Made by a program: the position numbers and the translations under genes
The notes under the pieces: model-generated
What the model saw: only the letters and a program-made list of their open reading frames with translations
What the model was told of the DNA's origin: nothing
The model's database searches: none
Shown: one piece after another, positions 44,676 through 47,293 of the stretch
Layout of the letters: each line of letters begins with the position of its first letter
Position numbering within the stretch: the first letter of the stretch is position 1
Assembly (NCBI RefSeq): GCF_000194605.1
Contig: NC_015321.1
Coordinates: 2,666,001 to 2,730,000 of the forward strand
Length of the DNA: 64,000 nucleotides
Direction of reading: 5' to 3'
From: Fluviicola taffensis DSM 16823
GTDB lineage: Bacteria; Bacteroidota; Bacteroidia; Flavobacteriales_D; Crocinitomicaceae

Positions 44676-45230
44676 ATGAATCAACAAGCTTATTATCATG
44701 TGACAACTTGTCTTCACGACAGTAGAACTTCTCAAAGAATGATTGACTACAATGCGCGCCAAAGACGTTTTCACGGAACACTTCCATATCCTGAAGTTTA
44801 CTACATGAACATGGATGAAGAAGTTTTGGTTGCCAAAGAGGTTTTATCACTTTCGAAAGGATTGGATGTTGAGTTAGTAGCTCTCAATGTTTGTAGAGAT
44901 CACATGCATTTATTGGTTTATTGTGATTATGATGAGGTTCCGAAAATCATGCATCGCATAAAAGGTCGAACTGCTCGTGTGTGCAACGCGCATCGCGCGT
45001 CCAAGGGGATTAATCCTCTTGACAGCACACGTGGTAGATATGAGCCCCGACCCTTGAAAGATGGATCGATTCCTTTTTGGACACAGAAGTACTATTGCAA
45101 AGTAATTCGGAGCACAGATCAATTGCTCAACACCTTTGCGTATATTCGAAATAATCGGTTGAAACACCAATTATCATTTAATTATGAACTAGAAGCATTG
45201 ATGAAAAATCTTCCGCTTAAAATTTTGTAA
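44676..45230 (+). CDS. REP-associated tyrosine transposase (RAYT, Y1 HUH superfamily)
   Basis: A 184-residue single-strand transposase of the IS200/REP family. The HUH metal motif is His76-Met-His78 (CRDHMHLLVYC), the probable catalytic Tyr156 lies in FAYIRNNRLKHQ, and RGRYEPRP plus FWTQKYY match the RAYT region between them. The size exceeds classic IS200 TnpA (about 140 residues) and fits RAYT. No TnpB, target duplication or long terminal repeats are visible; two hairpins lie just upstream. RAYTs are thought to be domesticated and to mobilise short palindromic REP elements, which is interesting given the dispersed palindromes in this window. Confidence 0.85.
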   Translation: MNQQAYYHVTTCLHDSRTSQRMIDYNARQRRFHGTLPYPEVYYMNMDEEVLVAKEVLSLSKGLDVELVALNVCRDHMHLLVYCDYDEVPKIMHRIKGRTARVCNAHRASKGINPLDSTRGRYEPRPLKDGSIPFWTQKYYCKVIRSTDQLLNTFAYIRNNRLKHQLSFNYELEALMKNLPLKIL

Positions 45231-45253: not shown

Positions 45254-46294
45254 TTAACACGGATCTTCCCAAGGGCCGTTTTTGGTTACAGGTTCAAATA
45301 CTTCTCCATTTGAACGATACAAGCCATTTCCTCCTCCAAGCCAAAGTCTTCCTTCACGATCTTGAAAAATAGCTTGTACTGCTCGCATATGAAAACCTTC
45401 TTTTTCTCCAAAATGAGTAAGCTTTTCATTGATGTATCGGTAAACTCCAAAGCCTTCGGATGAAAACCAAATTGCTCCTTTTGGATCTTCGTAGATTGTC
45501 CAAACCTCATTGTTGCCGATTCCGTTGTCTGAGTTAATTGTCGTAAAATCTTTTCCATTGTAAAGGCTTAATCCGCCATCCATTGAGCCAAACCAAACAG
45601 TTCCTTTTTTGTCGACTAATATTGTTGTTAAATCGTTAGAACATAAACCGTTTTCTTTAGAAAATCGATGAAATGTTGTTCCGTCAAATTTAAATGCTCC
45701 TTTCCCTGCTGTTCCAAACCAAAGGTTGCCTTGATAGTCTTCGGTGATTGAACGAATCCAAATTTGTTCAGTATTCGGTATTGGAAGGGGGTCAAATACT
45801 TTTCCATTAAATCTGCACAATCCAGTCAACGTTCCTACCCAAATGGTTCCTTTACTGTCCTGAAAAATACTCCAAACACTATTATGACTTAAGCCCTCTT
45901 TCTCTCCAAAAATCATGTAGTTTTTTTGATCATATTTGGTGACTCCATTGTTCGTTGAAAACCACATGTTTCCTTCTGTGTCTTCAATAATTCCAGTAAT
46001 CTGCGAACCGCTTAATCCTTGATTTGTATTTATATAAGAAAGATTTTTCCCGTTATACAAAGCAAGTCCATCTGTATTTGTTCCAAACCAGAGGTTTCCT
46101 TTGCTATCTTGAAAAACACGACGGATGTATTCGCTGATAGCATTCGAGTAATAACAAGGAAGTTGAGGTCCGTACATGAGGCTATCATCCCAGTTCTTCG
46201 ATTGAGGAATATTGATGATTGACTTTTTAATCGTTACGGATTGCGCACTGTAAAGAAATGTGATTACAGTTATCCCAATAAAAAATAATTTCAT
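45254..46294 (-). CDS. Free-standing secreted two-component-regulator propeller protein
   Basis: A 346-residue protein with a signal peptide (MKLFFIGITVITFLYSAQS) and seven or eight Reg_prop blades of the form FQDSKGNLWFGTNTDGLALY, IEDTEGNMWFSTNNGVTKY, TEDYQGNLWFGTAGKGAFKF. Such propellers normally form the periplasmic sensor of hybrid two-component systems and are fused to Y_Y_Y, kinase and AraC domains. Here the protein stops after the propeller (ending WEDPC) with no membrane segment or kinase. It is divergently transcribed from a membrane-anchored winged-helix regulator, 120 bases away, so it may feed a signal to it (inference). A -7 box lies at 46345-46352. Confidence 0.88.
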   Translation of the reverse strand: MKLFFIGITVITFLYSAQSVTIKKSIINIPQSKNWDDSLMYGPQLPCYYSNAISEYIRRVFQDSKGNLWFGTNTDGLALYNGKNLSYINTNQGLSGSQITGIIEDTEGNMWFSTNNGVTKYDQKNYMIFGEKEGLSHNSVWSIFQDSKGTIWVGTLTGLCRFNGKVFDPLPIPNTEQIWIRSITEDYQGNLWFGTAGKGAFKFDGTTFHRFSKENGLCSNDLTTILVDKKGTVWFGSMDGGLSLYNGKDFTTINSDNGIGNNEVWTIYEDPKGAIWFSSEGFGVYRYINEKLTHFGEKEGFHMRAVQAIFQDREGRLWLGGGNGLYRSNGEVFEPVTKNGPWEDPC

Positions 46295-46344
46295 AATTTT
46301 CTGTTTCTATAAATCTAAAAAATGTTGATTTTAAGTCATTTAAA

Positions 46345-46352
46345 CAAATGTA
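46345..46352 (-). promoter_or_regulatory. TAnnTTTG -7 box for the propeller gene
   Basis: Minus strand TACATTTG, 50 bases before the ATG at 46294; it overlaps the first unit of the tandem TGTAAATT repeat. Confidence 0.5.
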
Positions 46353-46366
46353 AATTAGTGTAAATT
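46349..46366. promoter_or_regulatory. Candidate winged-helix operator: tandem TGTAAATT, 10-bp period
   Basis: TGTAAATT at 46349-46356 and again at 46359-46366, one helical turn apart, in the divergent region between the propeller and the winged-helix regulator. OmpR-family domains are known to bind direct repeats spaced 10-11 bp. Confidence 0.45.
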
Positions 46367-46402
46367 GAATGAAAAAGATGTTCAAATGAAACCTGAATCA
46401 AA

Positions 46403-46410
46403 TATCTTTG
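46403..46410 (+). promoter_or_regulatory. TAnnTTTG -7 box, 4 bases from the regulator ATG
   Basis: TATCTTTG then four bases then ATG at 46415; implies a leaderless transcript. Confidence 0.6.
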
Positions 46411-46414
46411 TTCT

Positions 46415-47293
46415 ATGCTCGGAAAAATAAATCCAACATTTTCTTTACTGATAATTGGACTCTTTGTAATAGGTTCTGTTTTGCATGGCCAAGAAAACAC
46501 AAATGAAGGAATAATGAAAGCTCACTTGCGAAAAATTGGACACGAGCTCCTGCTTTTGGCCAATGATAGTACTTCGCGAGTTTTACCAATTGAGAAAAAA
46601 GATGGGGTTTTTAGGGTGGGATTTGCTTCTGAATTTCAACTCAATCCAGAAAACTTGACGACAATTATAAACTCTGAACTGAAAGATCTGCCAATAATCA
46701 ATAACTACTTGGTCGAAGTACAATCTTGTAATTCTAAAGAGGTCGTCTATAGTTATCAGTATAAAACTTCCGATGTTTTAGATCGGCCTTCTTGTGGTGG
46801 AAGACTACTGCCAAAAGCTTGCTATAACTTGGTCTTTACCATTTGGGAATCCAAAGTTTCCATTTCAGAAACCTCTTTCCAGTCAAACCAAAAGATGAAA
46901 TGGATTTTGATTGGCGTGTTCATTTCCATTTCTCTAGGAGTTAGTTGGTTCCTTTTTCAATGGAAAAAGAAAAGACCAGATGTTGAAAAATCAACAGACT
47001 TGATTGGTATTGGAAGTTTTCAATTTGATCCCATTCAAATGAAATTGATTCATCCTGATGGAGAATATGAATTAACAGGAAAAGAGGTTGATTTACTTGC
47101 GCAACTTTATAATTCAGTCAATCAAATTGTAGATCGAGATGTGATTTTACAAACTGTTTGGGGAGATGATGGCGATTATATTGGTAGAACATTGGACGTC
47201 TTTATTTCCAAATTGCGTAAAAAATTGGAAGCTGATTCAACTGTTAGAATCTTGAATATTCGTGGAGTGGGATACAAGTTGGTGGTTGGATAG
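46415..47293 (+). CDS. Membrane-anchored transcription regulator with C-terminal OmpR-type winged helix
   Basis: The 292-residue product begins with a signal peptide (about 1-25), then an extracytoplasmic domain (26-160) with three cysteines (105, 127, 136) and the motifs GHELLLLANDSTSRVLPI and SCGGRLLPKACYNL, one membrane segment (163-182, WILIGVFISISLGVSWFLF), a basic stop-transfer (WKKKRP), and a cytoplasmic winged-helix domain at 198-290 (LTGKEVDLLAQL, TVWGDDGDYIGRTLDVFISK, NIRGVGYKL). This is the reverse of ToxR/CadC topology, where the DNA-binding domain is N-terminal. No receiver domain. The sensed signal is unknown; the divergent secreted propeller is a candidate partner. Similar proteins occur in other Bacteroidota as far as I recall. 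Confidence 0.87.
   Translation: MLGKINPTFSLLIIGLFVIGSVLHGQENTNEGIMKAHLRKIGHELLLLANDSTSRVLPIEKKDGVFRVGFASEFQLNPENLTTIINSELKDLPIINNYLVEVQSCNSKEVVYSYQYKTSDVLDRPSCGGRLLPKACYNLVFTIWESKVSISETSFQSNQKMKWILIGVFISISLGVSWFLFQWKKKRPDVEKSTDLIGIGSFQFDPIQMKLIHPDGEYELTGKEVDLLAQLYNSVNQIVDRDVILQTVWGDDGDYIGRTLDVFISKLRKKLEADSTVRILNIRGVGYKLVVG

Follow-up and report, generated by a model that had tools for sequence, protein, structure and literature searches.

How a signal from outside the inner membrane might reach DNA without a phosphorelay is the question raised by a divergent gene pair of Fluviicola taffensis DSM 16823. The pair lies in a stretch of 64,000 nucleotides, hereafter the window (G000:C1:2666001-2730000, where G000 is the genome of the window, 4,633,577 bp in one contig); ORFs were called mechanically, and the features are collected in Table 1. 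The original prediction described a secreted, Reg_prop-only protein divergent from a membrane winged-helix regulator, and the ORFs, strands and intervening gap were found as described. Its further statement that no kinase or receiver stands between sensor and DNA-binding domain also holds for both proteins, and the regulator belongs to a widespread family, here called F0. The best explanation, which we consider rather probable, is that a one-protein descendant of a two-component system controls its own gene and the propeller gene via tandem repeats, and that the propeller signals back.

Table 1. Features of the propeller–F0 locus (positions of the window)
Feature	Position	Strand	Basis
Exported seven-bladed Reg_prop propeller, 346 aa	45254..46294	-	ORF; Pfam; AlphaFold model; Foldseek
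C-terminal tail GPWEDPC with terminal Cys346	45257..45277	-	Sequence
Seven four-stranded blades, residues 56-337	45284..46129	-	DSSP of model
Putative signal peptide, residues 1-18	46241..46294	-	Hydrophobic N-terminus; helix 3-15 in model
Shared divergent control region, 120 bp	46295..46414	.	Gap between the two ORFs
Tandem operator TGTAAATTAG-TGTAAATTGA, 10-bp period, putative regulator binding site	46349..46368	+	Family-wide enrichment
F0 transmembrane winged-helix regulator, 292 aa	46415..47293	+	ORF; Pfam Trans_reg_C; family alignment; model
Periplasmic domain, residues ~26-161	46490..46897	+	hhalign homology to sensor domain of RprY-adjacent histidine kinase; model
Cys105, putative disulfide partner of Cys136	46727..46729	+	Co-absence in family
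Cys127 of C-x-x-R motif, invariant, putative free thiol	46793..46795	+	74/74; loop pLDDT
Cys136	46820..46822	+	Family alignment
Transmembrane helix, residues ~162-182	46898..46960	+	Sequence; helix 150-185 in model
OmpR/RprY-type winged helix, residues 191-291	46985..47287	+	Top NCBIfam model RprY, E 2e-23; Foldseek

The propeller protein carries seven Reg_prop stretches (Pfam, E 3e-40), and domain-profile searches found no other recognisable domain in it. Its AlphaFold model is a single seven-bladed propeller preceded by an unstructured N-terminal linker (pLDDT 86), and the top PDB match in Foldseek is the propeller of the Reg_prop hybrid sensor BT4663 (PDB 4a2l/4a2m). The fold is shared; however, the window protein is one soluble, exported propeller with no Y_Y_Y, transmembrane, kinase or receiver part, so that its Reg_prop-only chain is not that of a hybrid two-component system. 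It is not a PorZ protein of the type IX secretion system (T9SS) either, scoring 63 bits against the NF052228 cut-off of 260. A Y1_Tnp REP-associated tyrosine transposase is encoded at 44676-45230 (+), 23 bp past the propeller stop codon, and is a possible agent of local rearrangement.

The original prediction regarded hybrid two-component chains as the normal setting of Reg_prop propellers, an expectation which this genome does not fit: a histidine kinase is present in five of the eight further Reg_prop proteins that were scanned, and the rest comprise one with an adenylate/guanylate cyclase domain, one PorZ-like protein and one without an output domain. The cyclase protein, outside the window (L238; G000:C1:1767431-1771354), has 1307 aa with Reg_prop and Y_Y_Y and the cyclase domain at its C-terminus, and is another propeller output without a histidine kinase. 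About 3.8 kb past the window end lies a 1010-aa sensor with Reg_prop, Y_Y_Y and His_kinase (L237; G000:C1:2733810-2736842).

In the regulator, an N-terminal hydrophobic segment is followed by a periplasmic domain of ~135 aa, a transmembrane helix and a C-terminal winged helix (Pfam Trans_reg_C at residues 217-289, E 1e-19), and domain-profile searches of its 292 residues found no receiver or kinase domain. Foldseek matched mainly the DNA-binding part, to OmpR-family and ToxR/CadC DNA-binding domains, and returned no named fold for the periplasmic domain. The OmpR-type C-terminus that had been predicted is thus present; the first hydrophobic segment may be cleaved, leaving the single span of the original prediction, or retained, giving two.

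About 7% of the Bacteroidota sampled have a member of the F0 family. With the periplasmic part as query, one copy per genome was found in 34/240 genomes of the bacterial family and 47/399 of the order sample, and 27/395 genomes of a phylum-wide sample had it; in two genera of the last, a further copy or a kinase also matched. Two matches in the phylum sample are 420-aa proteins with a histidine-kinase part, encoded beside an RprY-type response regulator, and the F0 periplasmic domain aligns with the sensor domain of those kinases (hhalign probability 94, E 1.6e-7), a homology that rests on these two kinase sequences. At the other end of the chain, RprY is the best-scoring NCBIfam model for the winged helix, of which only profile positions 128-228 (NF051850) are matched; with no receiver and 82.9 bits against the cut-off of 370, the window regulator is not itself an RprY response regulator. 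The RprY kinship is taken from NCBIfam ranks rather than from a tree, as a winged-helix tree with response regulators was uninformative on this point, its outgroup rows being two very long branches. We read F0 as an apparent fusion of the sensor region of an RprY-adjacent type of kinase with a winged helix of the RprY type, from which kinase and receiver have disappeared; the direction of change, from two-component system to F0, is one that we infer. Compared with RprX/RprY of Bacteroides (background in PMC6032018), F0 has a sensor homologous to that of the RprY-adjacent kinase and a winged helix nearest to RprY, whereas it lacks kinase and receiver and alone has the C127-x-x-R130 motif. The window also begins with the cut end of an RprY-type response regulator (1-317; L002), the full protein of which scores 276 bits against the same cut-off of 370.

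The divergent gaps at F0 contain direct TGTAAAt repeats that recur every 10 or 11 bp (best match 7.29/8 on average, against 5.95 after shuffling, s.d. 0.10), and operator scores of at least 12/14 were reached in 64/74 F0 upstream regions vs 16/430 control promoters; in the window, the tandem TGTAAAwtnrTGTAAA stands at 46349-46364. A TGTCAAA variant of the operator tracks one subclade of the F0 DNA-binding domain (p 4e-4), which helps the view that F0 itself is the predicted binder.

Genome-wide, the strict operator TGTAAAWTNRTGTAAA occurs once in G000 and once in G088, each time in the shared propeller–F0 gap, and exactly twice in six genomes of the genus (G096, G080, G070, G010, G129, G104), before F0 and before the unlinked propeller. 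G242 and G310 likewise have two copies, one ahead of F0 and the other ahead of a TonB_C-like partner unlinked to it; in G242, a Reg_prop lipoprotein lies directly downstream of that partner (L226:5339-6439). A perfect tandem site precedes all unlinked propellers that end in cysteine (6/6), and none (0/7) of the tail-less unlinked propellers (G075, G068, G099, G162) and the propellers of F0-less genomes (G044, G169, G056). Two propellers depart from this association, that of G140, which adjoins F0 and has the common operator without the tail cysteine, and that of G049, which has the tail and no upstream operator of its own. Nothing else ties the two genes together as strongly as the occurrence of the operator before F0 and before unlinked propellers, and their transcriptional coupling through it, linked or unlinked, is well supported by computation. 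The looser pattern TGTAAA-N4-TGTAAA has six matches in G000 vs three for the reversed pattern, and the five beyond the shared gap were not accepted as regulon members, being other variants and near the control count. A second strict operator was seen in G140 before an esterase-like protein (L320:4512-5651) and in G034 before a cupin-like protein (L321:4585-4950), both named by eye; these genes are possible extra targets of F0.

Gene order is a looser tie. A Reg_prop gene adjoins F0 in 8/74 loci vs 2/529 other ORFs (p 1e-4), across several Bacteroidota families and in three arrangements: divergent in G000, G088, G140, G273, G719 and G569a, convergent in G049, and upstream on the same strand in G609. 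The conservation check proposed with the original prediction thus did not refute it, given the recurrence at these loci and the common operator, although propeller and F0 are unlinked in six of the eight propeller-bearing genomes of the genus. The six same-genus genomes listed above have the propeller directly beside aspC, with no regulator between, and since they nonetheless share the operator, plain adjacency was set aside as too weak a test of linkage. Eight of the supporting propeller genomes represent one genus and are not independent, and the sampled genomes are unevenly related. Moreover, the propeller or the TonB_C-like protein is encoded in some genomes that lack F0, and many F0 loci have neither a propeller nor a recognised Cys-tailed neighbour.

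The exported proteins whose genes diverge from F0 fall into about eight unrelated families, including Reg_prop propellers, TonB_C-like proteins, FKBP lipoproteins, a YceI-like protein, a BNR-like propeller (the last two assigned by eye) and unnamed ones. Many of them end in cysteine: at the 74 loci, 24/57 divergent genes do so, against 10/596 other ORFs (p 1.5e-20), and the difference persists among exported-looking ORFs (23/47 vs 6/310) and with each partner family counted once (7/23 vs 6/415, p 6e-7). The pattern came from the order sample, was set as a prediction, and was then met in the independent phylum sample (10/22 vs 5/176). In 8/24 tailed partners, the terminal cysteine is the sole one beyond residue 35. 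Among the propellers, the tail cysteine is present in all eight orthologues of the genus and in that of G049, and is missing from propellers without the operator and from those of F0-less genomes; the tailed ones also have an N-terminal cysteine (PCYY), which the tail-less ones lack. The TonB_C-like exported family has an invariant C-terminal Gly-Cys and is often found beside F0 (L094, L095, L096, L102, L106, L134, L136 and others), with the tail cysteine retained in some F0-less genomes. Another, unnamed exported family with the motif HRYGGWYCPDNL is divergent from F0 in several genera (L109, L110, L108, L113, L140, L142), mostly without a tail cysteine, and in G569 a Reg_prop propeller fused to a YceI-like C-terminus (by eye) is divergent from F0 (L268:1226-2794).

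As for F0 itself, all of its members (74/74) have C127 and R130, and a related kinase is without C127. C105 and C136 are jointly absent in 9/74 and never singly in a complete protein, so that the simplest reading is a C105–C136 disulfide, which would leave C127 unpaired, probably as a free thiol. The Cys127 loop of the model has a pLDDT of about 66 and, judged from this loop confidence, is probably flexible or exposed. C127 is invariant also at F0 loci that have no propeller or recognised Cys-tailed neighbour.

According to the preferred explanation, a two-component system would have been reduced to a single chain made of a kinase sensor region, a transmembrane helix and an RprY-type winged helix. 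This regulator would bind the tandem TGTAAAwt repeats in the common control region (46349-46368) and thereby govern its own expression and that of the propeller, by activation or repression, and the exported propeller would act as co-sensor or feedback partner for the periplasmic domain. With no phosphorelay, such a small circuit might then signal conditions beyond the inner membrane, be it a ligand, the state of folding or export, or the redox state. The architecture, the domain origin, the operator and the coupling of the two genes are supported by computation; feedback from propeller to regulator is a suggestion, and the involvement of Cys127 and of the cysteine that ends the partner is a plausible hypothesis.

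It is very improbable that the two genes are mere chance neighbours. The loss of adjacency in most genomes of the genus would suit that view, but the operator is common to linked and unlinked cases, and Reg_prop is enriched beside F0 in several families. A more serious contender, to which we give a minor share of belief, is that the regulator senses the periplasm alone and the propeller is an output, a target gene working at the cell surface that returns no signal. The operator would then account fully for the genetic link, the regulator owns a kinase-derived sensor domain, and exchange of the partner among families as unrelated as FKBP, YceI and TonB_C-like proteins is what effectors would be expected to show. 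Against this, the Reg_prop and lipocalin-like YceI folds that recur among the partners are more familiar as modules for binding or sensing, and neither a regulon of nearly one partner nor a cysteine tail common to unrelated partners is expected of plain effectors. The interpretation given in the original prediction is partly supported: the shared operator couples the genes, but some eight partner families appear interchangeable, and the propeller is just one of them.

A further question, compatible with the preferred explanation, is whether the terminal cysteine concerns the regulator at all. It may equally well serve an internal disulfide, Cys47–Cys346 in the propeller, or anchoring elsewhere, and we regard the matter as evenly balanced. 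The disulfide is a fair rival because the tail-less propellers also lack the N-terminal cysteine; the retention of the TonB_C-like tail in F0-less genomes and the invariance of C127 where no tailed partner is known point the same way. On the other hand, some tailed partners have no cysteine beyond residue 35 other than the terminal one, the tail has turned up in about eight families unrelated to one another, for the most part next to F0, and most of the tail-less propellers are ones without the operator. The tail was not accepted as proof of contact, given the N-terminal cysteine of the tailed propellers and the TonB_C-like tail kept without F0. The idea that the partner's last residue is an exchangeable key, by which unrelated exported folds end in cysteine to pair with the invariant free thiol C127, is accordingly put forward as a tentative one that we rather doubt. 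If it were true, the state of the regulator would reflect whether the partner is present, exported or oxidised, and F0 proteins across Bacteroidota would belong to a family of modular membrane circuits that work through a thiol link and without a kinase.

Having its DNA-binding domain (217-289) and a transmembrane helix (about 162-182) in one chain, F0 can be placed in the broad class of transmembrane transcription regulators (TTRs), one-component DNA-binding proteins of the inner membrane that have no kinase (PMC10269533). It differs in that the sensor comes first and the winged helix last, and in its apparent two-component origin, its own operator and its Cys-tailed partner genes; with the operator present, F0 is predicted to act on its promoter from the membrane. 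ToxR/ToxS, VtrA/VtrC and TcpP/TcpH (PMC9214523) likewise combine a membrane winged-helix regulator with a separately encoded exported partner and have periplasmic cysteines, and F0 too is genetically coupled to such a partner by adjacency or common operator. However, these co-component systems have an N-terminal HTH, a C-terminal periplasmic domain and the partner downstream in an overlapping operon, whereas F0 reverses the domain order, its partners are divergent or unlinked and of many unrelated folds, and the conserved cysteine stands at the partner's end, not the regulator's. A heterodimer of the periplasmic domains is a further mark of these systems. Because of the differences in domain order, in the arrangement of the genes and in the range of partners, F0 was not filed among them. 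A few queries of open-access full text found no description of F0, an absence that is not proof.

Surveys have shown that membrane transcription regulators are common among Bacteroidota, although little is known of how they sense. F0 provides a concrete case in which a two-component system has apparently shrunk to one membrane protein, for which the operator and the partner gene have been identified from sequence. The pair suggests a simple, poorly studied route by which a signal may cross the inner membrane, and a common readout is suggested by the cysteine that recurs at the end of unrelated partners.
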